Shown: positions 3,237 to 22,511 of the stretch, in pieces
Position numbering within the stretch: position 1 is the first letter of the stretch
Layout of the letters: every line of letters starts with the position of its first letter
Source: a virus
Reading direction: 5' to 3' (one strand)
Length of the DNA stretch: 33,915 nucleotides
Virus record (IMG/VR): IMGVR_UViG_3300044621_001766
Coordinates: 1-33,915 of that record
The notes under the pieces: generated by a model
Told to the model about the DNA's origin: nothing
Database searches by the model: none
What the model saw: only the letters and a program-made list of their open reading frames with translations
Made by a program: the position numbers and the translations under genes

Positions 3237-4040
3237 GTGACTAAAATAACATTTCAAGATATTGTCAATTCTGCAATCATTTTAGGTTCAAACAAAGACC
3301 AAAATGCTTCGATACCTCCGAGTGTGGTTACTACGGCTGTAAACTTAATGACTGATTTTGTCTTGAATGAATTGGTGCGTATATATCCAAATTCCACTTT
3401 GGTTTTTGATAAGGCCCGCCCGTTCTTAAAAAGAAAGATAGTTGAAGTAAACAATGGATTAATTACACTCCCAAGTGATTATCGGGATATTCTTAGTATA
3501 TGCATTGCGGTCGATAAAACATACACTTCAAAATGCGAGTGCGAAAAAGAATGTGATGAAAATGATGTTTCACATGAAACGAAAGTAAGCGATTTGGTAG
3601 AAACGTGTGACCCGCAAAGCCCACTATATGACCCCAAAGCCGCAATAGTACGAAAAGAAAAATGTGAGTTCAAAAAAATTACAATACTTGATACAGACCA
3701 ATTTGATGATGCGACAATGAGTTCGCTATACCCGCCAACATATAAAGAACCTATTGGCGTTTTTGTGGATGTGAATACAATAAAGATTTGCCCAACAGAT
3801 ATTGTAAATGCAGAAATCAGGTACATCAAGCAGCCTTTGACTTACAATATGGCATACACCTTAATGCCCGATGATACATGGCAGATAAACACATCCGCAA
3901 GTAATTATATCGACTTAGAGTGGGAAAGAAATGTGTGGCCTGAATTTCATAGAGGTTTAGTATCTTTGTTTGCATTGCATACAAGAGATGGGAATTTGGT
4001 GCAATGGAATAATGAACTTAAAAAAATTGGATTCTTTTAA
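3237..4040 (+). CDS. putative ring/head-tail connector protein
   Basis: 267 aa with a GTG start 4 bases after the previous stop; no in-frame ATG is available nearby. The N-terminal ~65 residues look helical, then comes a beta-strand pair with GLITLPSDYRDI at ~80-91, a layout seen in ring or tail-adaptor proteins of podoviruses. The same layout (helices followed by an LPxxY/VPND-type strand) appears in the products at 4811 and 5740, so the three may be paralogous ring subunits. A Cys-rich insert (KCECEKEC) at ~100 is unusual. The assignment rests on architecture and position, not on a search. Confidence 0.5.
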   Translation: MTKITFQDIVNSAIILGSNKDQNASIPPSVVTTAVNLMTDFVLNELVRIYPNSTLVFDKARPFLKRKIVEVNNGLITLPSDYRDILSICIAVDKTYTSKCECEKECDENDVSHETKVSDLVETCDPQSPLYDPKAAIVRKEKCEFKKITILDTDQFDDATMSSLYPPTYKEPIGVFVDVNTIKICPTDIVNAEIRYIKQPLTYNMAYTLMPDDTWQINTSASNYIDLEWERNVWPEFHRGLVSLFALHTRDGNLVQWNNELKKIGFF

Positions 4041-4057
4041 CCTAAAAAATACATACA

Positions 4058-4171
4058 ATGAAACAAGTAAAAATGACAAAATCAAAAGTGAAACAAATTC
4101 ATAATAGTGCTTGTGGCAAAGGTCGCAGATGCGCTGTTATTGTATTGCCTACATTTAAAAAAGCAGCGTAA
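4058..4171 (+). CDS. small basic peptide, 37 aa
   Basis: An ATG at 4058 opens a 37-codon frame ending TAA at 4169-4171; the last A of the stop is the first base of the next gene's ATG (TAATG coupling). The product is strongly basic (MKQVKMTKSKVKQIHN at its start), with two cysteines (ACGKGRRCA) and a hydrophobic VIVLP patch. The tight coupling and A-rich leader (aaaatacataca) support a real gene. Function unknown. Confidence 0.55.
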   Translation: MKQVKMTKSKVKQIHNSACGKGRRCAVIVLPTFKKAA

Positions 4172-4806
4172 TGGAAGTGGTTACATATTGGGAGGCGTAT
4201 ATCGTCTTTCTTGTTATATCGTTGTTTTTTGGGGCGTTGGTGTGCAATGGCATTTGGGTCGCTTTTGGTGGCGAAACTGAACGTGCGCCAAACGGCGATT
4301 ATCGTGAAGTTTGGGCAATGATATTTTATCCAATCTATAAAAAAATAGCAAATCCCCGCACAACAAAAATTCACTATAATGAAGAAGGCGTTAGAAACTT
4401 AATATGTCAATTACATAATTGGTTTCCACACTTATTATTTGACATTGATTTCCCAAGAAGTATTGGCACTAAAATTTATGTTACTGACGAACAAAAACAA
4501 GCGTGGCATGAGGCCGCAAATGAACTTGAAGAAAAATACAATATCCATGTATCAATCGAAAAAGATAATAAGCTAAGAGTTTACAAAGAGTATTTCAATG
4601 TAAGGACATGGGCAAAGCCTATTGTTGCTTGCTATAAATGCTTCCCTTCATTTTGGGGGTCTATCGTATATTGGTTGGGAGTGTCTTTTTTCGTACATAC
4701 TAATTTTATCTGTTTTGAACTTCCTGTATTATTGCCAATGTGGGCGGTGTATGTATTGGCCTTGACACCGCTAAATATTATGCTTCATAAATTAATCGAG
4801 GACTAA
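4171..4806 (+). CDS. predicted membrane protein of the virion block
   Basis: 211 aa. One strong hydrophobic segment lies near the N terminus (~residues 6-30, around IVFLVISLFFGALVCNGIW) and two more near the C terminus (~155-205, around IVYWLGVSFFV and LLPMWAVYVLALTPLNIML). The middle is soluble and charged. The start codon overlaps the upstream peptide's stop. A membrane protein between connector genes is unusual; it could act in lysis, superinfection exclusion or DNA entry, but the sequence gives no family motif. Confidence 0.5.
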   Translation: MEVVTYWEAYIVFLVISLFFGALVCNGIWVAFGGETERAPNGDYREVWAMIFYPIYKKIANPRTTKIHYNEEGVRNLICQLHNWFPHLLFDIDFPRSIGTKIYVTDEQKQAWHEAANELEEKYNIHVSIEKDNKLRVYKEYFNVRTWAKPIVACYKCFPSFWGSIVYWLGVSFFVHTNFICFELPVLLPMWAVYVLALTPLNIMLHKLIED

Positions 4807-13796: not shown

Positions 13797-15149
13797 ATGT
13801 CAAAAAAAGAAAACCAATTAGTTTTAGAAAAAATCGAAGTTAAAAATTTTGCGGGTATTGATGATTCAAAGCCCGTTTTAATTTGTCTTGGTAAAGATAG
13901 TAAAAATATTGTAACGGCTGGCGGCGACCAAGAGGTAGGCAAAACTTCTTTCTTAACTGCTATCAAAGGGACATTAGGCGCAAACCTTGAATTAAAGGAA
14001 GAAAACTATGTCAACCAAAAAACAGGGAAAATTGAAACCGATTTAGAATTTGTGTATAAGGGTCGTAGATTCCGATGCACATGGAGAAAGTCTTATTTTA
14101 AAGTTCAGGAGTACATTACGGATGAAGTATTGAAGCGCGAAGGGTGGACTGACCAAAGAAACCCAACTGAACTATTGAAGGTGATGTTTGGATATGTTGC
14201 ACAAACACCCGAATCGTTACGCTTAAAAGATGGGAAGGCTCAAATTGAGGAATTTAAAAAAGTCATTGGGGCTTCTTTGGACGAAACCGAAATTAAATTA
14301 AAAAAAGACTTTGAGGAAGTTTCAAAATCTCGCACAGAGGCCAATCGTTCTTATACGGGCATCAAAAAGAAATTGGAAGAAACTCCTATGTATGTAAATT
14401 GGGAGGAATTTGAAAAACTTTATTCGCAAGAAAAGTCAATCGAAAGTGAAAAGTCTAAATACCTTCAAGCGCAAGAAAAATCTTCAAAATATCAAGAGGC
14501 ACAATTAAGACTATCAAGCCTACAAGAGCAAAAAACATCAAAGGCAAAAGAAATTCAGGATTTAGAGAACAAATTAATTACTCTTAAAAATGAGCAAGCG
14601 GCCCTTGAGGAAAAAATAGAAGTTGGCGAAAAGTACATCAATGACAATAGTTCTGTAATTTCTGAATTTGAAGAAATAAGCAAGTCATATTTAGAGATTA
14701 GCCAATATATAGCAGACCGAAATAATTGGTTGGGCGTTGTGACATCAAAGAAAGAAATGGAGGAATACGAATCATTGATACAAGCCTTCGATTCTCAAAA
14801 AGACACAATCAAGGCAAAGTTGCGTGAATTATATACGTCTATGTTGCCAAACATTGAAGGTTTAGAAATCATATCTGTTGAAGAATTGGATTCTGATAAA
14901 AAAGTTGGCGTTTACTACAAAGACAAACCTATTTCGATACTTTCTGAAAGTGAGTTGTGGGGGCTGTACTTGCAAATATGGGATGCGCTAAATATCAAAT
15001 TTGTAATTATTGACAATATATCTGATTTAGGTTCACGGGCCGTAGAAATCATCAACCAAATGGCCGCAGAAGGCGTTTACTTCTTTGCCGCCAAGATGAA
15101 AAGAAATGAGCCAATGACAATTACAATTACTGAAAAGGTAGATGATTAA
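13797..15149 (+). CDS. Rad50/SbcC-like SMC-type ATPase
   Basis: 450 aa with split ABC-ATPase architecture. The N-terminal head begins LEKIEVKNFAGI and has Walker A GGDQEVGKTS (~42-51). A central heptad-rich coiled coil spans about residues 165-300. The C-terminal head has an LSESELWG signature (~382) and Walker B FVIID (~402-406). The residue after the Walker B Asp is Asn where Glu is usual (FVIIDNISDLG), so hydrolysis may be slow or altered. It is much shorter than cellular SbcC (~1000 aa), like phage gp46-type proteins. The nuclease gene overlaps its 3' end, suggesting a two-subunit DNA end-processing complex for replication or recombination. Confidence 0.8.
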   Translation: MSKKENQLVLEKIEVKNFAGIDDSKPVLICLGKDSKNIVTAGGDQEVGKTSFLTAIKGTLGANLELKEENYVNQKTGKIETDLEFVYKGRRFRCTWRKSYFKVQEYITDEVLKREGWTDQRNPTELLKVMFGYVAQTPESLRLKDGKAQIEEFKKVIGASLDETEIKLKKDFEEVSKSRTEANRSYTGIKKKLEETPMYVNWEEFEKLYSQEKSIESEKSKYLQAQEKSSKYQEAQLRLSSLQEQKTSKAKEIQDLENKLITLKNEQAALEEKIEVGEKYINDNSSVISEFEEISKSYLEISQYIADRNNWLGVVTSKKEMEEYESLIQAFDSQKDTIKAKLRELYTSMLPNIEGLEIISVEELDSDKKVGVYYKDKPISILSESELWGLYLQIWDALNIKFVIIDNISDLGSRAVEIINQMAAEGVYFFAAKMKRNEPMTITITEKVDD

Positions 15150-16158
15150 CATGAAGCAAATACTAAAGTTGGATAGGATATGGAATGAGGTGGCCTACAA
15201 AGAAAATAAGCCACTTGTTAAAAGGGATTATTGTTATGCATCTGAAATAGGTGGCGCAATGTATGACAGAATACTAAAAATGAACGCAGTCGAATATACT
15301 AATCCCCCGAATATAAGGTCATTACGAAAATTCCTTGCGGGTAATATATGGGAATATGTGGTTAAGCAAGTACTACTTGCATCGGGCGTATTTAAAAGAG
15401 AAGAAGTGAAATGTGATAGTACTCCTTATTCGGGCCTTGTATCGGTACATGGTAGATTTGATTTTCACGTTGGCGGCGTTGTTGATATAGAACACGCATT
15501 TCACGAATTGAAAAGCATGAACGCCCCTGAATATTTGTATATCTTAGGTGAAAAGATTATCTATGGATTAAAGGGGGCCGAATTTGAGGAATCAATATTT
15601 GAACTTAAATCATGTAGTTCATTTGCGATGGATAAGTTAGAACGCACCAACGCTCCGCTATACAACAACGAAAGCCAAGCGTACTACTACAAGCGTAGCA
15701 CACAAAAAGATGCACAGCTTTGCTATATATGCAAGGATGATAACCGAATGAAGCAATTTTCAATAGGCGACTGCGAGCAGCAACTACACCAAGACTTAAA
15801 AAAGATTTCAGACTATTTAGAAAGTGGTGAAACACCCCCGCTTGAACCTATCGTAAAATGGAGTGATGCCGATGCTAAATTTGAAAAAAATTTCAATGTA
15901 GAATACAGCCCATATCTTGAACATTATGGATTCAAAACACCCGAAGAATATAGAGATTCAGTTACCTTTGTTACATCATGGAATAGGGTTATTGATAGGT
16001 ACTATATGGCCGAAATAGGTATCAAAACAGCAAACGGCCAACCCGTAAAAATAACCGATAAAAACAAACAAGTAAAAGCCCAAATCGCCGAACTATACGA
16101 CTTTGAAAAAATACTCATAAGAAGAATAGAAGTCGGTGGCGAAGCAAGCGAAGAATAG
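15142..16158 (+). CDS. PD-(D/E)XK (RecB/Cas4-type) nuclease
   Basis: 338 aa; ATGs at 15142 and 15151 are both possible, each overlapping or abutting the ATPase stop at 15149. Motifs fit a RecB-family exonuclease: SEIGGAMYDRIL near the N terminus, GRFDFHV (D ~107), FELKS (E154-x-K156) and a QAYYY helix (~179-183) after the active site. Tight coupling to the Rad50-like ATPase suggests that it supplies the nuclease of an SbcCD/gp46-gp47-like complex, but with a PD-(D/E)XK domain instead of the usual Mre11 phosphoesterase. It is the last phage-backbone gene before the cassette array. Confidence 0.75.
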   Translation: MINMKQILKLDRIWNEVAYKENKPLVKRDYCYASEIGGAMYDRILKMNAVEYTNPPNIRSLRKFLAGNIWEYVVKQVLLASGVFKREEVKCDSTPYSGLVSVHGRFDFHVGGVVDIEHAFHELKSMNAPEYLYILGEKIIYGLKGAEFEESIFELKSCSSFAMDKLERTNAPLYNNESQAYYYKRSTQKDAQLCYICKDDNRMKQFSIGDCEQQLHQDLKKISDYLESGETPPLEPIVKWSDADAKFEKNFNVEYSPYLEHYGFKTPEEYRDSVTFVTSWNRVIDRYYMAEIGIKTANGQPVKITDKNKQVKAQIAELYDFEKILIRRIEVGGEASEE

Positions 16159-16177
16159 CAAAGTAAAACAAAAAAAT

Positions 16178-16447
16178 ATGCGTACACAAGAAGAAATTAA
16201 AAGACAAATTGAAGGATTAGAGAAAATGAAAACTTGGTTGCCCGAATATTCAGGATTAGGAACGCCTAACCACGAATTGATTGATGTTCAAATATCAATA
16301 ATTGATGGCAGTAGCGAATTATCGGATATTGATGAAGGTGATTTTGAAGAAATGGATGCACAGAATGAGGTTTATCGTGGTGCAGAAGAAGCTGAAATGT
16401 GGTTAGATGGTGATAGGGAAGAAGATTTGTTTGAGGAACAGTCGTAG
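16178..16447 (+). CDS. cassette 1: acidic small protein, unknown
   Basis: 89 aa from the ATG at 16178, preferred because of the A-rich leader; an earlier in-frame start at 16136 would overlap the nuclease gene. It begins MRTQEEIKRQIEGLEKMK and has a very acidic second half (SDIDEGDFEEMDAQNE, DGDREEDLFEEQS). The end of the gene runs into TAGTATTACCGCTAACG, closely matching the end of cassette 11 (TTAGTATTACTGCTAACG), so this is probably the first cassette. A matching 5' GTTAGCGGT box is not found upstream, so its left end has been lost. Function unknown; acidic DNA-mimic behaviour is possible but unsupported. Confidence 0.65.
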   Translation: MRTQEEIKRQIEGLEKMKTWLPEYSGLGTPNHELIDVQISIIDGSSELSDIDEGDFEEMDAQNEVYRGAEEAEMWLDGDREEDLFEEQS

Positions 16448-16451
16448 TATT

Positions 16452-16583
16452 ACCGCTAACGTTGAAGCATTGGCGATGTAAGGGATTTAAAGCACAAAAG
16501 TTGATATGAGTACAGGTTTAAATAATAGCACAAATGTTGAAGGTTTGCACGTCAGCCCTTCTCTTGCCAATGCTATGTTATCG
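16452..16583 (+). repeat. attC site A (complete)
   Basis: R'' ACCGCTAAC is at 16452-16460 and R' GTTATCG at 16577-16583. The arms pair strongly through AGCATTGGC (16467-16475) with GCCAATGCT, and further in through AAGGG/CCCTT. The long spacer contains GCACAAAAG and the ATG (16506) that starts the next gene. Confidence 0.85.
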
Positions 16584-16751
16584 GCAGTTTCTCGTCCCGT
16601 TGTTAAAATGAAAGTACAATGGCATGGGTACGATTGTATCATACAGAAACTACGATACAGAGATAAGGTTGCCAAACTGAAACCTGATTATAGTGGTAAC
16701 CCCATGCCATACGATTACTTTTGGGTTGACTTTAATGAAATCGGTTTTTGA
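16506..16751 (+). CDS. cassette 2: small unknown protein started inside attC A
   Basis: 81 aa. The ATG at 16506 lies in the attC A spacer, so the first ~24 residues (MSTGLNNSTNVEGLHV onward) are encoded by the attC right half, and the frame crosses the crossover point at ATG|TTATCG. Internal alternatives are the ATG at the crossover (16575, MLSAVSRPVVKM) or a later one (VKM). The cassette body encodes KVQWHGYDCIIQKLRYRDK and ends DYFWVDFNEIGF, a compact beta-type pattern of unknown family. The stop is 6 bases before the R'' of attC B. Confidence 0.6.
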   Translation: MSTGLNNSTNVEGLHVSPSLANAMLSAVSRPVVKMKVQWHGYDCIIQKLRYRDKVAKLKPDYSGNPMPYDYFWVDFNEIGF

Positions 16752-16756
16752 AATTG

Positions 16757-16888
16757 CCGATAACGTTATTTGGCTTTACGCAGGTGGGGCTAAATAGTAC
16801 GAAAATTTCAACCTGCACAAAAGATTATTAAAAGCACGTAAGCTGGGTTTAATCGCTAACCCCCACTTGCGTAAAACCAATGTTAGCG
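16757..16888 (+). repeat. attC site B (complete)
   Basis: R'' CCGATAAC ends at 16764 and R' GTTAGCG is at 16882-16888. The arms TTTGGCTTTACGCAGGTGGGG and the complement of CCCCACTTGCGTAAAACCAA pair over ~20 positions with two mismatches. The extended R'' TGCCGATAAC is complementary to the start of cassette 2, GTTATCGGCA. Confidence 0.9.
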
Positions 16889-17155
16889 GTTCGTTTTATT
16901 ATGAATTTTCAAGAAGCACTCAAAGTATTAGGCATAGAAGATTATGCTGAAAGAATTTTTAAAAGTAATTCTCACGGGGAGTTATTCCATATACAGCAAT
17001 ATTTTACACTTGCTGAAACATTCAAAGATGATGCAGGTTGGTTTAGACAATGGTTTGAAGAAGTGGTAAAATTTGCTGAACAAAATTGGCAACGTCCAGA
17101 ATCTGTCTTTCAGCATATATCTAAAATTCTCGTTGAACAGATGTCTGAAAAATGA
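16880..17155 (+). CDS. cassette 3: small unknown protein
   Basis: 91 aa if started at the ATG straddling the crossover of attC B (ATG|TTAGCG at 16880), or 84 aa from the ATG at 16901, which is equally plausible. It begins MNFQEALKVLGIEDYAERIF and is rich in aromatic residues and Glu (GWFRQWFEEVVKFAEQNW), predicted mostly helical. No domain is recognised. Its stop overlaps the first base of the extended R'' (ACCGCTAAC) of attC C, which is complementary to this cassette's start GTTAGCGGT. Confidence 0.6.
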   Translation: MLAVRFIMNFQEALKVLGIEDYAERIFKSNSHGELFHIQQYFTLAETFKDDAGWFRQWFEEVVKFAEQNWQRPESVFQHISKILVEQMSEK

Positions 17156-17200
17156 CCGCTAACGTTTTCGGGCTTGGCGAAGTGGCTGAACCCGAAGCTA
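17155..17200 (+). repeat. attC site C (partial, right arm lost)
   Basis: R'' ACCGCTAAC (17155-17163) and a left arm with an inner hairpin TTCGGG...CCCGAA are present, followed by GCTAAATAG, a motif that also follows the left arm of attC B. No complementary right arm or R' box is found downstream before attC D, implying a deletion. Confidence 0.65.
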
Positions 17201-17233
17201 AATAGAATTAATAAACTTTAAAATTAAAAATAT

Positions 17234-17506
17234 ATGTCAAAATTAAAAAATCAAACAGTATTCCCAATAAAAGAAACTATAAGAGATATTAATAATGTTA
17301 CATTATGCTCTCAACAAGCTGGGATTAAAAAAATAGAGCATTTCACGTCTTTAGCTATGCAAGGTATTGTATCAAATGAATTTATGATTAAAGATATTCT
17401 CACTCAACGTACAGTAAACGATAGAGATACTCCACTTGAAACACTTATGGCTCGTTTCGCTGTCAAATTAGCAGATGCAACTTTAAAGGAAATAGAAAAA
17501 TTATAA
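17234..17506 (+). CDS. cassette 4: small unknown protein (first of a pair)
   Basis: 90 aa from the ATG at 17234, preceded by a very A-rich leader. It begins MSKLKNQTVFPIKETIRD and is largely helical, with SLAMQGIVSNEFMIKDIL in the middle and a C-terminal helix LADATLKEIEKL. Its stop is two bases from the start of the 66-aa frame at 17509, so the two may be translated together. That spacing resembles toxin-antitoxin pairs, but no toxin or antitoxin motif is visible. The 5' boundary of this cassette was lost with the attC C right arm. Confidence 0.55.
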   Translation: MSKLKNQTVFPIKETIRDINNVTLCSQQAGIKKIEHFTSLAMQGIVSNEFMIKDILTQRTVNDRDTPLETLMARFAVKLADATLKEIEKL

Positions 17507-17508
17507 TT

Positions 17509-17709
17509 ATGAATATTCTACAAAACTTTATAAACTTTGAAAGCAAACAGTCAAAGTCAATTCGTGGCGGTGTTGAAATGTATGATATTAAAGGGTATTA
17601 TAAATATCTTACTTTTTCTGAACTGTTTGATTATTGGTGTAGTAGGTCAAATTGCACCCAACGTTTTGCAGCTATGCTTAGTTGCGGACTTAAAGAACGA
17701 AATTTTTAA
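17509..17709 (+). CDS. cassette 4: second small protein, running into attC D
   Basis: 66 aa from ATG 17509 (an internal ATG at 17578 would give MYDIKGYYKYLTFSEL). The last ~18 codons are encoded by the left arm of attC D: CCCAACGTTTTGCAGC translates as part of QRFAAMLSCGLKERNF. The real C terminus may therefore be an attC read-through tail. Function unknown; it may be a remnant whose own stop was lost when the cassette end was rearranged. Confidence 0.4.
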   Translation: MNILQNFINFESKQSKSIRGGVEMYDIKGYYKYLTFSELFDYWCSRSNCTQRFAAMLSCGLKERNF

Positions 17710-17788
17710 TTAACAACAAAAGTAAATATGGAAAACGAAACAACAATTAAGCACGAAACCGACAATAGCGATTTAGGTGCTGTTAGCA
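17655..17788 (+). repeat. attC site D (complete boxes, degenerate arms)
   Basis: R'' ACCCAAC (17656-17662) fits RYYYAAC exactly, and R' GTTAGCA is at 17782-17788. Arm complementarity is weak. The layout of the spacer, including GTTGCGGACTT and a start ATG at 17728, closely follows attC F. Weak arms suggest a hybrid or decayed site. Confidence 0.6.
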
Positions 17789-18108
17789 GCAGTTTTAATT
17801 ACGAGGCTGCATGGAAATTACTCGAAGAAAAAGGTCTTAATTTTGGCGAAAGAATAAAGATTAGAAAAGCCTTTTCTGATTGGGGTAAAGGATTTGATGA
17901 AAACATTGAATACGACCATAAACACAATACTTATTCATCAAAGAAGAAAAAAGGCTATGGATTTAGTAAAGAAGACGAGGTGACTTTTTTTAATGCACTA
18001 ATTGACTTTTCGCCAAATTCAGACACCGAAAAAATAATTCAAGTAATGTCAATCGTTATGAAATTGCTTGATATAGAAAGTGAATGGTCATTTCGTGGCA
18101 GTCGCTAA
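17728..18108 (+). CDS. cassette 5: unknown protein whose only start is in attC D
   Basis: 126 aa. The ATG at 17728 lies in the spacer of attC D and the frame crosses the crossover as GCT G|TT AGC (GAVSSS). Downstream of the crossover no in-frame ATG occurs until near the C terminus, so translation depends on the attC-borne start. The leader peptide (MENETTIKHETDN) resembles that of the cassette 7 gene (MKTETLIKHENGN), although the bodies are unrelated. The body begins FNYEAAWKLLEEKGLNFGER and carries a basic patch (SSKKKKGYGF) and a helical C terminus. Function unknown. Confidence 0.65.
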   Translation: MENETTIKHETDNSDLGAVSSSFNYEAAWKLLEEKGLNFGERIKIRKAFSDWGKGFDENIEYDHKHNTYSSKKKKGYGFSKEDEVTFFNALIDFSPNSDTEKIIQVMSIVMKLLDIESEWSFRGSR

Positions 18109-18111
18109 AAT

Positions 18112-18217
18112 TGCTGCTAACGCTTTGCAGCTCGGTGTCTGTTATTTTGCCTTGCAGATACTTCAAGCCTTAGATAAATTTAATAGGCAAAATAATAGCA
18201 CCAAACTGCTGTTAGTG
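18112..18217 (+). repeat. attC site E (complete)
   Basis: R'' TGCTGCTAAC (18112-18121) is exactly complementary to the start of cassette 5, GTTAGCAGCA. R' GTTAGTG is at 18211-18217. The arms GGTGTCTGTTATTTTGCC and GGCAAAATAATAGCACC pair over ~16 bp. Sequence and size are close to attC H. Confidence 0.9.
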
Positions 18218-18241
18218 GATGGTGCGGTAAATTAAGTAGAA

Positions 18242-18442
18242 ATGACATTAATAGCAGAATTAGAAAAGAAAATCACAACAGAAATGGAGAATAAATATTT
18301 TCCGAAATTTAAAAAGCAAGCCGCTTATTTAGGTAATGGAGTATATTCAATACCTGCAACAAATATTTATTCCACCGATACGAGGGAATTGTTTTTAATG
18401 TTTGTCGCAGCACAAGAAAATATTTCATTTAAACAACGATAG
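18242..18442 (+). CDS. cassette 6: small unknown protein
   Basis: 66 aa with its own ATG 30 bases inside the cassette. It begins MTLIAELEKKITTEMENK, a charged helix, then YLGNGVYSIPATNIYS and a hydrophobic helix FLMFVAAQENI. The stop is 9 bases before the R'' of attC F (TACTAAC). No family recognised. Confidence 0.55.
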   Translation: MTLIAELEKKITTEMENKYFPKFKKQAAYLGNGVYSIPATNIYSTDTRELFLMFVAAQENISFKQR

Positions 18443-18450
18443 GTAGCACT

Positions 18451-18587
18451 TACTACTAACGTTTTGGCGGTTGGCGTTCGTTGCCGACTTTGGAACACAA
18501 AACTTTAACTTTAAAAATAAATTTGATATGAAAACAGAAACTTTAATAAAACACGAAAACGGCAATGACGCTAACCGCTTGTTAGCT
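18451..18587 (+). repeat. attC site F (complete, carries a start codon)
   Basis: R'' TACTACTAAC ends at 18460 and R' GTTAGCT is at 18581-18587. The left arm GGCGGTTGGCGTTCGTTGCC pairs with GGCAATGACGCTAACCGC with one small bulge. The spacer contains CACAAAACTTTAA and the ATG at 18528 that initiates the next gene. Confidence 0.88.
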
Positions 18588-18737
18588 GCCGTTATTCCTC
18601 CTCAATCGGAGGTAGATTACAGCAAGGTAAAACAAACTTGCTTATGTGGTGTAAGTGTAAATCTATGCGATAAAGTTATTATGCCTGATTATGGTAAAAG
18701 ATGCCCTTGTGTGGTGTCACATTACAATGGCAGCTAA
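18528..18737 (+). CDS. cassette 7: small Cys-rich protein started in attC F
   Basis: 69 aa from the ATG at 18528 in the attC F spacer. The first 18 residues (MKTETLIKHENGNDANRL) come from the attC, and the frame crosses the crossover at TTG|TTA GCT. After the crossover the next in-frame ATG is deep in the body (VIMPDYGK), so the attC start is needed. The body has five cysteines (CLCG, VNLC, RCPC), a possible zinc-binding knuckle. The longer open frame back to 18471 uses only non-ATG starts within the attC and is not preferred. Its stop overlaps the R'' of attC G. Confidence 0.6.
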   Translation: MKTETLIKHENGNDANRLLAAVIPPQSEVDYSKVKQTCLCGVSVNLCDKVIMPDYGKRCPCVVSHYNGS

Positions 18738-18863
18738 CGGTTCGCAGGCATATTTAGTTTCGGACTTAAATGCACAAAACTTTAAATTTAGAACAAATGA
18801 ACATAGAAGAACAGAACTTGAATGAATCACAAAAACCGCAATTGAATATACCTGCTGTTAGCA
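18729..18863 (+). repeat. attC site G (complete, carries a start codon)
   Basis: Extended R'' GGCAGCTAAC (18729-18738) is exactly complementary to the start of cassette 7, GTTAGCTGCC. R' GTTAGCA is at 18857-18863. The arms GCAGGCATATTTAGTTTCGG and the complement of CCGCAATTGAATATACCTGC pair nearly throughout. ATGs at 18770 and 18797 lie in the spacer. Confidence 0.9.
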
Positions 18864-19003
18864 GCAGTGTTTTGATGAAGTATATTAATATGACGAGAGA
18901 AGAAGAGATTCGGTTTATGAGTGAGTGTATAAATGGTAAGCCGAGATATTCAGATAGCGAAATAGCTTTAAGTTTAGCAATGATGTCAATTAGCGGTAAG
19001 TAA
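18797..19003 (+). CDS. cassette 8: small unknown protein started in attC G
   Basis: 68 aa from ATG 18797 (a start at 18770 adds 9 residues but lies in the GCACAAAACTTTAA spacer motif). The leader MNIEEQNLNESQKPQL is attC-encoded and the frame crosses as GCT G|TT AGC (PAVSSS). Here the body has its own possible starts just after the crossover (VLMKYINMTREEE), so the fused leader may be optional. The rest is helical (REEEIRFMSECI, SDSEIALSLAMMSI). Function unknown. Confidence 0.55.
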   Translation: MNIEEQNLNESQKPQLNIPAVSSSVLMKYINMTREEEIRFMSECINGKPRYSDSEIALSLAMMSISGK

Positions 19004-19006
19004 CAT

Positions 19007-19108
19007 TGCTGCTAACGTTTTGCGGCTTTGTGTCTGTTTGCCCCTTGCACAATGCTTCAATTTACCACAAATGTTGATGGGGCAAATAGCACAAAACCGC
19101 TGTTAGGC
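19007..19108 (+). repeat. attC site H (complete)
   Basis: Extended R'' TGCTGCTAAC (19007-19016) is exactly complementary to the start of cassette 8. R' GTTAGGC is at 19102-19108. The arms GCGGCTTTGTGTCTGTTTGCCCC and GGGGCAAATAGCACAAAACCGC pair along their full length with small bulges. Confidence 0.93.
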
Positions 19109-19133
19109 GTATGTATTTAAAAACCATAACGAA

Positions 19134-19793
19134 ATGATAAAGCACCCTGCAACGTACACAAATAGTTTCATTCCAAAATTTGCTGAATTGCTTATTGGAT
19201 GTGAGAATGTACTTGATATTTTCGGGGGCGTAGGAAAACTTGCCCTGATAAAAGAACACGGATTTACTGGTAAAGTAATCTGTAATGAATTGGAACGAGA
19301 GTGGGCGGAAACATCACCACATAATGTTGATGAATGGCATATTGGAGATGCTGCAAATATGGCGTGGGCTGTAAGTAATTCTTTTGATGCGATATGTACA
19401 AGCCCCACTTATGGCAATAGAATGGCTGACCACCACAACGCAAAAGATGGAAGCAAAAGAGTTACTTACAAGCATTTTTTAGGTAGGGATTTGAACGAAG
19501 CGAATACAGGTAAAATGCAATGGGGTGAAAATTACAGGCAGAAGCATTTGGAAATTTACAAAGAGTGTGGTAGGGTTCTAAAAAATGGTGGGCTTATGAT
19601 TGTGAATGTTTCCGACCATATACGAAAAGGGCAAGTTGTGAATGTGGTTGAATGGCATAAGGATGCACTAACAAATTTTGGAATGAAACTTATAAACGAA
19701 ATTAAAATTGAAACACCGAGAATGGGATTTGGGCAGAACGCTAAAAGCAGGGTGCAACACGAATGTATCTTGGTTTTTAAATATTACGCCTAA
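19134..19793 (+). CDS. cassette 9: DNA adenine/cytosine-N4 methyltransferase
   Basis: 219 aa, own ATG. SAM-binding motif I is VLDIFGGVGK (~26-35) and the catalytic motif IV is TSPTYGNR (~89-96), i.e. SPTY in place of the usual SPPY. Motif I precedes motif IV, the gamma-type order. It ends with a beta hairpin (ECILVFKYYA). The family transfers a methyl group to the amino nitrogen of A or C in a target site. No restriction gene is adjacent, so it is an orphan enzyme, plausibly protecting phage DNA from host restriction. Its stop codon TAA lies within the R'' GCCTAAC of attC I. The Thr in motif IV may affect activity. Confidence 0.82.
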   Translation: MIKHPATYTNSFIPKFAELLIGCENVLDIFGGVGKLALIKEHGFTGKVICNELEREWAETSPHNVDEWHIGDAANMAWAVSNSFDAICTSPTYGNRMADHHNAKDGSKRVTYKHFLGRDLNEANTGKMQWGENYRQKHLEIYKECGRVLKNGGLMIVNVSDHIRKGQVVNVVEWHKDALTNFGMKLINEIKIETPRMGFGQNAKSRVQHECILVFKYYA

Positions 19794-19881
19794 CGTTTTG
19801 CGTATATGAGAAGTGGCACTTGTAAAATGTTGAAATTTAACACAAATGTTTCTGTGCCATTTCTTATATACGCTGTTAGCA
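19785..19881 (+). repeat. attC site I (complete)
   Basis: Extended R'' TACGCCTAAC (19785-19794) is exactly complementary to the start of cassette 9, GTTAGGCGTA. R' GTTAGCA is at 19875-19881. The arms GCGTATATGAGAAGTGGCAC and GTGCCATTTCTTATATACGC pair almost perfectly. Confidence 0.94.
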
Positions 19882-19979
19882 GTAGTACGGTAATTAACCA
19901 CAAATGCTCAATCGAAGAACTGAACCTTTTTCTTTTCTTTTTTGAGCGAGGGCAAAAATAATTTTGAAAAAATTAAAAT

Positions 19980-20822
19980 ATGATTGATATAAATAAGAAT
20001 TATAATGAAAGCAATTTAGAAACAATGGCAAAGATGCCTGATTGTTTCGTGGATTTAACAGTAACTTCTCCACCTTATGATGGATTAAGGACTTATGAAA
20101 GCGAAGATTATTTAACCTGTGGTGAATTTGAACAAATGGTTCAAGAGTTATGGAGAATAACAAAGCAAGGCGGTGTTGTTGTATGGATAGTTGGAGATTC
20201 AGTAAAGAATGGAAATGAAAGTGGAACGAGTTTTTATCACGCCTTGACTTTTAAGAAGTACGGTTGGAATTTATTTGACACTATGATTTACTTCAAAAAC
20301 GGTGGACTAAATTCAGGTGCAAATAATTCATACATTCAAAAGTTTGAGTATATGTTTGTATTTTCAAAGGGTAAAATAAAAACAACAAACATTATTGAAG
20401 ATAGACCAAACGAACACACCAAACCAAGAACAAAGAAAAAAAGAAACCCTGATGGCACATTTAGAATACAAGAAGTATTGACAAAAGAGCAAGGTAAGAG
20501 GTATAATATTTGGTGTGTAAATACAGGAATACCACATTCAACGCAAGATAAAATTGCTTACGAACATCCTGCAATATTTCCAGAAGAACTTGCTAATGAC
20601 CATATTTTAAGTTGGACAAATGAAGGGGATTTGGTTTACGATTGTTTTATGGGAAGCGGAACAACTGCAAAAATGAGTATTTTAAATAATCGTAATTGGA
20701 TAGGGAGTGAATTATCTTCTGAATACTGCAACATTATTGAAGAACGTATTAAAAAAGCGTGGGAAGAAAAAAGAAAAGAAAAATATTTACAAGCAGGAAC
20801 TCTATTTGAAAACGAAATGTAG
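19980..20822 (+). CDS. cassette 10: beta-class DNA N4/N6 methyltransferase
   Basis: 280 aa, own ATG about 100 bases into the cassette behind an A-rich leader; TAATTTTG at 19959-19966 could be a weak -7 box. The catalytic motif TSPPYDGLRTY (~29-39) is N-terminal and the SAM motif FMGSGTT (~223-229) is C-terminal, the beta-class order. NESNLxTMxxMPDxFxDLTVTSPPY is shared with the cassette 13 enzyme, as are FEYMFVFSKGK and HPAIFPEELANDHI, so the two are paralogues with different middle (target recognition) regions. The C-terminal tail is charged. Likely an orphan methylase protecting phage DNA. Confidence 0.88.
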   Translation: MIDINKNYNESNLETMAKMPDCFVDLTVTSPPYDGLRTYESEDYLTCGEFEQMVQELWRITKQGGVVVWIVGDSVKNGNESGTSFYHALTFKKYGWNLFDTMIYFKNGGLNSGANNSYIQKFEYMFVFSKGKIKTTNIIEDRPNEHTKPRTKKKRNPDGTFRIQEVLTKEQGKRYNIWCVNTGIPHSTQDKIAYEHPAIFPEELANDHILSWTNEGDLVYDCFMGSGTTAKMSILNNRNWIGSELSSEYCNIIEERIKKAWEEKRKEKYLQAGTLFENEM

Positions 20823-20827
20823 CACTT

Positions 20828-20919
20828 GCTGGTAACGGTTGCGTATATAAGAGGTATGCCACCGAGATTATGAACTGAAAAAATATGCTTCTGCGTATCT
20901 CTTATATACGTTGTTAGCA
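20828..20919 (+). repeat. attC site J (complete)
   Basis: R'' TGGTAAC is at 20830-20836 and R' GTTAGCA at 20913-20919. The arms GCGTATATAAGAG and CTCTTATATACG pair well, and the site is related to attC I. Complementarity of R'' to the start of cassette 10 (GTTAGCA) has a mismatch, the weakest of the intact cassettes. Confidence 0.85.
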
Positions 20920-20954
20920 GTAGTACGGATTATTAACAACTAAATATAAATAGA

Positions 20955-21176
20955 ATGAGAATTTATCAATTAAGAACAGCGAAAGAGTTTTACAACTCAA
21001 TTAAAGGAAATTTTACAACGGAAGAATTAATGCAAATGTACGCAGAAGATGTGGCGAAAAGATTTGCTGCTGAATGTGTAAATGAAGCACTTGGAAATAA
21101 GATGGAAGTATCAAACTCTTTGCATCACGCAATTGAAGGAAAGTACAAATCTATCATTTGGGAGAGCGAAGGTTAG
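20955..21176 (+). CDS. cassette 11: small helical unknown protein
   Basis: 73 aa from ATG 20955 with an A-rich leader. Mostly helical: RTAKEFYNSIKGNF, EELMQMYAEDVAKRFAAECV, SLHHAIEGKYKSI. No catalytic motif. The same cassette-start sequence (GTTAGCAGTAGTACGG) begins cassette 10, suggesting a shared cassette lineage or recombination between neighbours. The stop is 3 bases before the extended R'' of attC K. Confidence 0.6.
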   Translation: MRIYQLRTAKEFYNSIKGNFTTEELMQMYAEDVAKRFAAECVNEALGNKMEVSNSLHHAIEGKYKSIIWESEG

Positions 21177-21179
21177 TAT

Positions 21180-21268
21180 TACTGCTAACGGTTGGCAGAT
21201 AAGCGAAGGCACAAATAGCGTTGGCATTGTGCGGTGGGATTTGGGCTTTTGCTTATGTGCTGTTATAT
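21180..21268 (+). repeat. attC site K (complete)
   Basis: Extended R'' TACTGCTAAC (21180-21189) is exactly complementary to the start of cassette 11, GTTAGCAGTA. R' GTTATAT is at 21262-21268. The arms GCAGATAAGCGAAGGC and GCTTTTGCTTATGTGC pair with three mismatches or wobbles. Confidence 0.88.
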
Positions 21269-21306
21269 GCCGTTTGAATTATTAACCAATTAAAAAAAAT
21301 ATAAAA

Positions 21307-21525
21307 ATGAACATTATTAAAGACAACAGAATTGTATCAGACAAAACATTTGCAACCCGATTTGTAAATTTCTTAAAAGACATACAAGTTAATGACCCAA
21401 TGAGTGAAGAAGAACTTGAATACTTGCGTAGGGTTGCACATTCATTACTTCTTCATCAAGCTAATACTTGCACTGAAAAAGAAGAATTAAACTACTTGGA
21501 TAGGTGTCACCCAAATGGCATATAA
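21307..21525 (+). CDS. cassette 12: small unknown protein, stop codon in attC
   Basis: 72 aa with its own ATG after an AAAAAAATATAAAA leader. It begins MNIIKDNRIVSDKTFATRFV; the middle is acidic and helical (SEEELEYLRRVAHSLLLHQ) and the end carries CTEKEELNYLDRCHPNGI. The TAA stop is formed by the R'' box itself (GGC ATA TAA C). Function unknown. Confidence 0.6.
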   Translation: MNIIKDNRIVSDKTFATRFVNFLKDIQVNDPMSEEELEYLRRVAHSLLLHQANTCTEKEELNYLDRCHPNGI

Positions 21526-21649
21526 CGTTTCCGCTATGAGTAGTGGCGGGCTTAGAACTACTCACTATCAAAATACAACAAATGATAATAGAAAGCACAA
21601 ACGATAATAACAGCACGAACCCCGCCATTACTTATAGCGAGTGTTATGC
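21517..21649 (+). repeat. attC site L (complete, carries a start codon)
   Basis: Extended R'' GGCATATAAC (21517-21526) is exactly complementary to the start of cassette 12, GTTATATGCC. R' GTTATGC is at 21643-21649. The arms CGCTATGAGTAGTGGCGGG and CCCGCCATTACTTATAGCG pair with two mismatches. The ATG at 21582 in the spacer starts the cassette 13 methylase. Confidence 0.94.
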
Positions 21650-22439
21650 ACAGCCTTTTTTACTTTTCAATGAGAGTAATTTAGCTACAATGAAACGAAT
21701 GCCTGATAACTTTATAGATTTGACGGTAACAAGCCCTCCTTATGATGGTTTGCGAACATACAATGGATATTCATTCCCATTTGAAGATATAGCAAAAGAA
21801 CTTTATAGAGTAACAAAACAAGGTGGAGTTGTTGTTTGGGTTGTAAATGATAGTACAAAAAATGGTAGCGAAAGTTTAACTTCATTTAAACAAGCAATTT
21901 ACTTTACAGAATGTGGTTTTAATTTGCACGATACAATGATTTATAAAGCAGAAAAACCACCATTAACACATAACAGATATGAACAAAAATTTGAATATAT
22001 GTTTGTGTTTAGTAAAGGAAAGCCAAAAACATTTAACCCAATTTTAGAGCCATCAAAATATGCTGGGCAAGATAAAAAAAACAGAACAATGCGACAAGAT
22101 AGTGATGAACTTGGGAATAGAAGTGGTAAAGGATATGTTGCAGATTTAAAAATAAAGGGAAATATATGGGAATATGCTATTGGTGGTGGTAAAAGCACAA
22201 AAGACCAAATTGCATTTAAGCACCCTGCAATATTCCCTGAACAATTAGCTAACGACCACATAATAAGCTGGAGCAATGAAGGAGATATTGTTTACGACCC
22301 ATTCGCAGGAAGTGGAACAACTGGGAAAATGGCAATACTAAATAAACGCAAATGTATCATGTCAGAAATTTCATCTGAATATTGCGAGATAATAAAAAAA
22401 CGATTAGAACCGATAATAAATGAACGCACGCTCTTTTAA
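21582..22439 (+). CDS. cassette 13: beta-class DNA N4/N6 methyltransferase started in attC L
   Basis: 285 aa from the ATG at 21582 in the attC L spacer (a GTG at 21543 is further back in the left arm and less likely). The frame crosses the crossover as GAG TG|T TAT (SECYAQ). No in-frame ATG exists between the crossover and the conserved NESNLATM segment, so the attC start is needed to make a protein as long as its cassette 10 paralogue. TSPPYDGLRTY (~50-60) and FAGSGTT (~241-247) are intact. The middle (ADLKIKGNIWEYAIGGGKSTKDQ) differs from cassette 10, implying another target site. The stop is 3 bases before the terminal R'' half-site. Confidence 0.86.
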   Translation: MIIESTNDNNSTNPAITYSECYAQPFLLFNESNLATMKRMPDNFIDLTVTSPPYDGLRTYNGYSFPFEDIAKELYRVTKQGGVVVWVVNDSTKNGSESLTSFKQAIYFTECGFNLHDTMIYKAEKPPLTHNRYEQKFEYMFVFSKGKPKTFNPILEPSKYAGQDKKNRTMRQDSDELGNRSGKGYVADLKIKGNIWEYAIGGGKSTKDQIAFKHPAIFPEQLANDHIISWSNEGDIVYDPFAGSGTTGKMAILNKRKCIMSEISSEYCEIIKKRLEPIINERTLF

Positions 22440-22442
22440 GGT

Positions 22443-22452
22443 TGTGCATAAC
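22443..22452 (+). repeat. attC half-site at the 3' end of the array
   Basis: TGTGCATAAC is exactly complementary to the start of cassette 13 (GTTATGCACA), so this is its R'' box. No left/right arm pair or R' follows; only CACAAATAG, a motif also seen inside attC K, comes next. The array therefore ends in a truncated attC. Confidence 0.75.
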
Positions 22453-22511
22453 TCACAAATAGACGAAATATACACATTGATAATCAACAAACTGCGGTTT
22501 ATTTTTTAATT

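Follow-up and report, generated by a model that had tools for sequence, protein, structure and literature searches.

An integrase-less cassette array in a viral contig as the probable cargo half of an integron-like system of Bacteroidota and their phages

Why should a phage carry a string of integron-type gene cassettes and no integrase? Bacterial integrons swap antibiotic-resistance genes, and the question is raised here by an array at positions 16,159 to 22,452 of the window, the 33,915-nucleotide IMG/VR virus record IMGVR_UViG_3300044621_001766, in which phage genes flank the array on both sides. Integrase-less attC arrays (CALINs) are known from phages, among them Polaribacter phage P12002L with methyltransferase cassettes, Tetrasphaera phage TJE1 and Pseudoalteromonas phage PH101 (Qi et al. 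2023, PMC9892861). From the sequence comparisons presented below we consider it likely that the window locus is the cargo half, an attI-like end with its cassettes, of an integron-like system of Bacteroidota and their phages, in which a recombinase that is a sister of the integron integrase IntI would exchange the cassettes.

The first-pass annotation had described ten complete attC-like sites in one orientation, and that description holds. A custom scanner found 10 sites on the plus strand of the window and 0 on the minus strand, versus a mean of 0.77 and a maximum of 4 in 100 dinucleotide shuffles of the window, and a covariance model trained on 22 sites, all from other phage contigs, retrieved all ten in one orientation (25.7 to 90.3 bits; Table 1), its remaining matches in the 33.9 kb being only antisense shadows of two of them. 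Compensatory changes occur in 17 of 25 stem pairs among the model's source sites, where two G.T wobbles are invariant. As in canonical integrons, the sites are tandem hairpins of a single orientation with R''/L''/L'/R' boxes; Rfam gave zero matches in the array region. The self-matching of boxes within cassettes was likewise borne out: among the seven scorable window cassettes, six agree at 6/6 variable positions and the seventh at 4/6, and the mean for 332 unique cassettes from all loci, some of which had been picked for resembling the window's cassettes or attC, is 5.05/6, versus 2.24 (maximum 2.42) when R'' boxes are shuffled across those cassettes. Of three further sites called damaged, two are genuine remnants: an R''/L'' half near 17160, lying in a stretch (17158-17230) with ~96% identity to an attC-bearing Muminvirus sequence, and an R' half at 17782. 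The terminal one (22443-22452) is probably the cassette-attI junction, judging by its counterparts at other loci.

Table 1. Features of the cassette array, in window coordinates
Feature	Position	Strand	Content or evidence
Distal array end	16159-16460	+	ORF 16178-16447, then R'' 16457-16460; no attC 5' of the ORF
attC-like site 1	16452-16585	+	Covariance model, 25.7 bits
R''-bounded unit	16461-16764	+	attC 1 body, small ORF (listed 16506-16751), R''
attC-like site 2	16756-16890	+	Covariance model, 35.5 bits
Unit	16765-17163	+	attC 2 body, small ORF (ending 17155), R''
Damaged attC, R''/L'' half	17160-17200	+	Sequence
Damaged attC, orphan R' half	17782-17792	+	Sequence
attC-like site	18113-18219	+	Covariance model, 27.8 bits
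attC-like site	18452-18589	+	Covariance model, 46.7 bits
attC-like site	18730-18865	+	Covariance model, 46.5 bits
attC-like site	19008-19110	+	Covariance model, 58.1 bits
Unit	19017-19794	+	attC body, 219-aa N6/N4 DNA methyltransferase-like ORF 19134-19793
attC-like site	19786-19883	+	Covariance model, 90.3 bits
Unit	19795-20836	+	attC body, DNA methyltransferase 19980-20822 (PF01555, 2.8e-41)
attC-like site	20828-20921	+	Covariance model, 65.6 bits
attC-like site	21181-21270	+	Covariance model, 36.2 bits
attC-like site	21518-21651	+	Covariance model, 47.1 bits
Last unit	21527-22452	+	attC body, DNA methyltransferase 21543-22439 (PF01555, 3e-42); ends in R'' TGTGCATAAC
Putative cassette-attI junction TGTGCATAAC/TCACAAATAGACGAAATATACAC	22443-22475		Analogy with other loci; single sequence

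Most of the window cassettes encode small unknown ORFs or DNA methyltransferases. As the annotation had stated for an integrase, the 33.9-kb record, a linear and possibly incomplete contig, contains no tyrosine recombinase; with at least two attC and no intI on a contig of this kind, the array formally fits the definition of a CALIN. The attC-like site at 19008-19110 shares ~91% identity over 100 nt with attC of isolated Flavobacterium phages. A donor search of 395 Bacteroidia genomes found the attC end AATAGCACAAAACCGCTGTTA (at most one mismatch) in only 3 and identified no cassette donor. The window's Rad50-like and nuclease proteins matched none of the phage records, and its nuclease and terminase retrieved no relatives as single-sequence IMG/VR queries.

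What do related phages reveal? All 14 of the virulent Baltic Flavobacterium (Moomin) phages examined carry arrays of the same type with different cassettes, compared with the 17 CALINs counted in 10,705 phage genomes by Qi et al. (PMC9892861); an array like that of the window is not unusual in flavobacterial phages. Across the 14 arrays, 26 units and 36 distinct junctions could be delimited, and turnover is precise to a single base, the shared stretches of 111-6802 nt ending at YAAC plus 1-13 further matching bases, except in two comparisons with incomplete segmentation. Seven different cassette ends abut a single invariant 76-nt attI-like phage sequence, and none of the 14 genomes encodes a tyrosine recombinase. 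The proposal of integron-type cassettes serving a Bacteroidota phage as swappable accessory genes, for which turnover in relatives had been named as a check, is supported, and such junctions suggest that recombination occurs at these arrays. The accompanying picture of a plain, one-time CALIN capture does not agree with relatives in which the array stands at a fixed attI and cassettes are still turning over.

Canonical recombination is restricted to R' of the bottom strand (PMC2727003). The G|TT polarity that had been assumed for the window, with attC 3' of the gene, is not supported: attC lies 5' of the gene here, the exchange boundary is R'' (YAA|C) 3' of the gene rather than R' (G|TT), and the moving unit is an attC together with the gene 3' of it. 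This is seen in related arrays and in the window's own 19017-19794 unit, which recurs in L044 at 94.5% identity over 689 nt, divergence starting exactly after R'' TACGCCTAAC. Shared units retained their 5' attC and differed in the 3' attC in 250 comparisons of pairs, most of them between Moomin phages and not independent, versus 0 of the reverse; at other loci, window included, the corresponding numbers of pairs were 9 and 0. Segmentation of the Moomin arrays at G|TT was rejected, giving 34 inconsistent cassette families where segmentation at R'' gave clean units. The longest ORF runs from R' to R'' in 307 of 316 cassettes, and the genes could equivalently be viewed as reversed relative to canonical cassettes, reading toward attI. 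The strand may also differ from that of canonical integrons, for sequence features point to the ORF-sense strand, which bears the G.T wobbles and folds better: in 417 of 435 unique sites a G following YAAC faces the T that precedes GTTR, two bases that pair on the ORF-sense strand only, and folding favours that strand in 337 sites and disfavours it in 29.

Which enzyme might be responsible? In 80 viral loci selected by their recombinase alone, 293 sites lie 5' of the recombinase on its strand, versus 5, 8 and 6 (19 in total) in the other three position and strand classes, and a conserved attI, YAAC|TATTATATATA, precedes the start of the viral recombinase genes. On chromosomes the sites lie 3' of the recombinase in converging orientation (33 versus 4), with attI identified by eye, as for AAC|TCATTTATAG in L274. 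An attI can be recognized in related arrays from the 76-nt sequence and from the motif before viral recombinases, and in the window by analogy only; the putative attI of the window deviates from the viral consensus. The recombinase does not possess the IntI-specific I2 insert, with 83-92 amino acids between GxR and HxxRH versus 133 in IntI, and recombinases of related arrays score below the cut-offs of both TIGR02249 (140-161 of 265 bits) and the Xer families (about 150-200 bits, cut-offs near 330). In the tree the clade falls outside XerC/XerD and groups with IntI (support 100/100), the viral and chromosomal recombinases being placed apart from IntI with a support of only 82/89. On profile scores and phylogeny, the linked clade is a sister of IntI without I2. 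It resembles XerC/XerD and XerA-like recombinases (NF040815, TIGR02224, TIGR02225) in its catalytic boxes and absence of I2, and differs from XerC/XerD in its ties to attI and attC arrays and its grouping with IntI.

Relatives of this recombinase occur in 193 of 395 Bacteroidia genomes, about half, whereas a true IntI above the TIGR02249 cut-off occurs in 1; the canonical IntI platform assumed at first is rare in this class. No attC was detected within the 16 kb read around the sole true IntI, in genome G153, and host polarity is therefore not readable from G153. Only 9 of 40 contigs with the recombinase carry either of two terminase families, so some of the 40 may be host DNA. Of two phages with terminases related to that of the window, Cellulophaga phage phi13:2 has sites of the same type and a nearby tyrosine recombinase that did not match the clade profile, and an elemo phage gave zero model matches in the 48 kb read.

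In the mechanism that we propose, a tyrosine recombinase of the I2-less sister lineage would exchange cassettes at attC-like hairpins, possibly on the folded ORF-sense strand, crossing over within the R'' box that follows a gene and moving a unit that consists of attC and then gene. In other phages attI is followed immediately by the recombinase gene. Neither the window nor the Moomin phages have this gene, so the enzyme would have to act in trans, supplied by the host or a co-infecting phage. Such a system would share with canonical integrons (IntI1, VchIntIA) an attI beside a tyrosine recombinase gene, tandem hairpin attC, single-gene cassettes, self-matching R boxes and single-base exchange. 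It would differ in placing the exchange at the R'' that follows the gene rather than at R', in genes that read toward attI, and in a recombinase without the I2 or additional domain of IntI: an intI with I2 beside the array is absent in the window, and its counterpart in related arrays is insert-less. Both single-strand hairpin recombination and cassette capture are considered to require I2 (PMC7790495), and the mode of action of an I2-less enzyme may therefore be another one.

Could the window simply hold a block of canonical cassettes, captured once by illegitimate recombination and static ever since? Its hairpins are attC-like, its contig encodes no integrase and 17 phage CALINs are already on record, yet isolated phages with the same array type show single-base turnover at a fixed attI, the boundary is R'' and not R', true IntI occurs in 1 of 395 Bacteroidia genomes and the arrays are linked to a different recombinase; for other phages this reading is largely contradicted, and for the window we regard it as unlikely. 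We are equally doubtful of exchange in trans by the host's XerC/XerD, or by one of the rare true IntI enzymes, with the linked clade not the main actor. XerC/XerD were found in the Bacteroidia genomes checked, neither the Moomin phages nor the window encode a tyrosine recombinase, and CTX phage is a case of XerC using a hairpin (PMC7790495); against this stand the orientation-specific linkage of arrays to the recombinase (293 versus 19), the conserved attI in its leader and the separation of its clade from XerC/XerD (100/100). CTX-phi and other Xer-exploiting elements do share a hairpin substrate and a tyrosine recombinase without I2 (PMC7790495), but there the whole phage enters dif, whereas here single-gene units are exchanged within an array.

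Homologous recombination between similar attC repeats, by phage annealing proteins or RecA and with no site-specific enzyme, would draw on attC bodies that are alike across cassettes and on long identical tracts common to related phages. It is very improbable in view of breakpoints at one base (YAAC) with 1-4 further matching bases in most comparisons, attC bodies that consistently remain attached to the same side (250 and 9 versus 0) and attI junctions without flanking homology. Just as remote is a chimeric assembly joining phage and bacterial integron DNA, given the same structure in isolated, finished phage genomes, a window methyltransferase unit that recurs on another viral contig and phage genes in both flanks.

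With exchange by an IntI-sister recombinase as the preferred explanation, the wider significance lies in integron evolution. Standard tools define IntI by its I2 insert. With them, Bacteroidetes had yielded a single complete integron and otherwise just In0 elements (PMC9024848), so tools keyed to the insert may have missed a system that is common. How integrons arose is an open question, with no known intermediates (PMC7790495); an I2-less sister lineage tied to genuine attC/attI arrays would make it directly testable and, if correctly interpreted, would be a living counterpart of a pre-I2 stage. We lean, with less assurance than for the window locus itself, toward a phylum-wide integron class, common to Bacteroidota chromosomes and phages, with an IntI-sister recombinase that never gained I2, attC-first cassettes and exchange on the opposite strand; some phages would keep just an attI with its cassettes and borrow the enzyme. 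A search of open PMC papers turned up no account of this variant. The phage CALINs of Qi et al. likewise lack an integrase, sit in virulent phages and include methyltransferase cassettes, and in their main text the authors describe neither turnover among related phages nor an R'' boundary nor such a recombinase clade (PMC9892861); what is new beyond it is the single-base turnover at attI, the R'' boundary and the linked I2-less recombinase. The sites of Polaribacter phage P12002L are matched by the present covariance model.

The cassettes probably alter phage protection against host restriction, which could bear on host range. In Flavobacterium phages isolated together with their hosts, second-host plating efficiency has been linked to a methyltransferase gene (PMC7077304), and the arrays described here indicate that phages exchange single defence-related genes at fixed sites.

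Where does cassette exchange take place in the array that the first-pass annotation had read as an integron cassette array in a phage, without an integrase and with circular cassettes recombining at G|TT? The ten attC-like sites in one orientation stand: the scanner finds on average 0.77 sites, and at most 4, in the shuffled window, and a covariance model trained on 22 sites taken from contigs of other phages, chosen against circularity, recovers 10/10, its other matches being antisense shadows of two sites only. The record is a linear IMG/VR virus contig of 33.9 kb with virion and nuclease genes on the flanks of the array, and its terminase is 24-28% identical to those of flavobacterial and Cellulophaga phages. 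The adjoining Rad50-like ATPase and nuclease had no match at E <= 1e-5 among 50,697 phage records. The cassettes encode small ORFs, which found no match in Pfam, and three N6/N4 DNA methyltransferase-family proteins. Since Qi et al. 2023 (PMC9892861) already reported integrase-less arrays in phages (17 CALINs among 10,705 phage genomes, the virulent Polaribacter phage P12002L being among the carriers, with methyltransferases in its cassettes, and 5/6 tested phage attC sites recombining with attI1 under IntI1), the array taken alone is a further example of a known arrangement; our covariance model also matches the P12002L sites.

Short DNA matches led to the Moomin phages, isolated virulent Baltic Flavobacterium phages of Muminvirus, Lillamyvirus and Hattifnattvirus (Nilsson et al. 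2020), in whose description neither integrons nor attC or attI are mentioned. Close to the left end, 14/14 genomes carry 9-14 attC-like sites in varying order and content. Unit boundaries at the canonical G|TT of R' were rejected, the resulting units being inconsistent; segmentation at the R'' end (YAAC) gives 26 clean units and 36 different junctions in the 14 arrays. Where two Moomin phages have a common unit and a different next unit, their identity extends over 111-6802 nt as far as YAAC and is lost within the following 1-13 nt; another two comparisons are off-pattern through incomplete segmentation. In 250 comparisons of common gene units in different contexts (overlapping pairs, mostly within the Moomin phages), the units had the same 5' attC and a different 3' attC, and in 0 the reverse; outside this group the counts were 9 and 0, one of the nine being the window's methyltransferase unit against viral contig L044. 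The proposed G|TT polarity is thus not supported. In canonical integrons the gene comes first, then attC. Recombination there occurs at R' of the bottom strand only (PMC2727003), whereas here the exchange boundary is at R'' and attC lies 5' of the gene.

Features and their coordinates in the window and in related loci
Feature	Locus	Position	Strand	Remark
Ten complete attC-like sites	window	16.16-22.45 kb	all +	scanner and covariance model
Rad50-like ATPase and nuclease genes	window	13797-16158		adjoin array
Methyltransferase unit	window	19017-19794		also in L044
Moomin arrays and putative attI	L034-L040, L108-L114	about 1.6-8 kb	minus
True IntI	L126 (G153:C40)	3295-4542		sole one in 395 Bacteroidia genomes
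Clade-like recombinase copies	G051:C1	near 2259396, 2356719, 2629472		one chromosome
Recombinase with N-terminal extension	L115	1216-2349
attC-like sites and methylase gene	L322 (Cellulophaga phage phi13:2)	12855-16359		terminase relative of window phage

The predicted attC structure agrees with the turnover polarity. Compensatory changes occur in 17/25 stem pairs, with two G.T pairs invariant, and in 417/435 unique sites the G after YAAC lies opposite the T before GTTR, giving a wobble pair in the ORF-sense strand, where the complementary strand has a C.A mismatch; predicted stability of the ORF-sense strand is higher in 337 sites and lower in 29. Gene direction is R' to R'' in 307/316 cassettes.

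At the 3' end of the Moomin arrays, seven different cassette ends are joined to one invariant 76-nt sequence, which, judged by these joins, behaves as an attI site. Variability is highest at the attI-proximal end. A PF00589 tyrosine recombinase was found in 0/14 Moomin genomes. Some viral contigs encode a tyrosine recombinase (about 265-300 aa) directly 3' of the array, and when IMG/VR was searched with the recombinase alone, the best 80 loci, some near-identical, held 293 strict attC-like matches upstream on the recombinase strand versus 5, 8 and 6 in the three remaining classes. Only 9/40 recombinase contigs carry a terminase from either of two families, so host DNA may be among them. The leader in 68 distinct loci reads variable...YAAC|TATTATATATA; at least 10/14 motif bases occur in 68/68 leaders versus 25 shuffled and 21 downstream controls, so many because the motif is AT-rich, and the strong point of this candidate site is that the left half varies, the right half is conserved and their join keeps a regular spacing to the gene. 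Against the integron-integrase model, whose cut-off is 265 bits, the recombinases reach 140-161 bits; they lack the IntI-specific insert, the distance from GxR to HxxRH being mostly 83-92 aa, compared with 133 aa in IntI1 and Bacteroidia IntI and 94-98 aa in E. coli XerC/XerD. In the tree, the clade groups with IntI, apart from XerC/XerD (100/100), and its viral members form one lineage (100/100). IntI branches with moderate support (82/89) as the sister of all other sequences in that group. In phage phi13:2, the tyrosine recombinase beside the attC-like sites does not match the clade.

Clade profile matches at E <= 1e-55 occur in 193/395 sampled Bacteroidia genomes and true IntI in 1/395; no attC was detected near this IntI, which is In0-like. 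Since the chromosomal sites are on the 3' side of the recombinase and converge with it (33 versus 4 in 299 kb; in a first pass, 12 in 64 kb downstream versus 7 in 557 kb upstream) and cassette ends there run into AAC|TTGTTTATA-like sequence (read by eye, in about half of 16 loci), the putative attI is behind the recombinase gene in chromosomes, in front of it in phages, and genes read toward it in both. The attC sites can alternatively be described as ordinary relative to attI, with the genes reversed; a promoter at attI would therefore be unable to express the cassettes, and we infer that their genes use their own or upstream promoters. Most chromosomal recombinases have longer frames (about 300-460 aa), and that of L115, a recombinase locus, has an N-terminal extension absent from the viral ones. 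Three clade-like recombinase copies with nearly equal scores in Bacteroidia genome G051 suggest recent duplication or mobility. In draft genomes (e.g. G387:C183, G192:C157, G230:C9) a contig end is no more than a few hundred bases away from many of the clade recombinases, as though repeated arrays had interrupted the assembly.

The window array ends in TGTGCATAAC|TCACAAATAG, which, by analogy with the Moomin phages and recombinase loci, is probably the attI junction rather than a damaged attC; the terminal one of the three sites first called damaged would be reassigned accordingly. By the same analogy, the window phage and the Moomin phages would be carriers of attI plus cassettes that borrow a recombinase, supplied in trans by the host or a co-infecting phage.

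A methyltransferase cassette that some isolates have and others lack may account for the published differences in plating between LMO6 and LMO9. A particular methyltransferase is missing from Moomin isolates of LMO9 with poor plating on LMO6, morran9-1 and lillamy9-1 being named (PMC7077304). Unit 6 of the Moomin arrays contains an 843-nt methyltransferase gene; that this is the published one is a guess, because the unit is also missing in snusmum and hattifnatt phages. It is missing in morran9-1, lillamy9-2 and lillamy9-6, and found in sniff9-1, mumin9-1 and filifjonk9-1.
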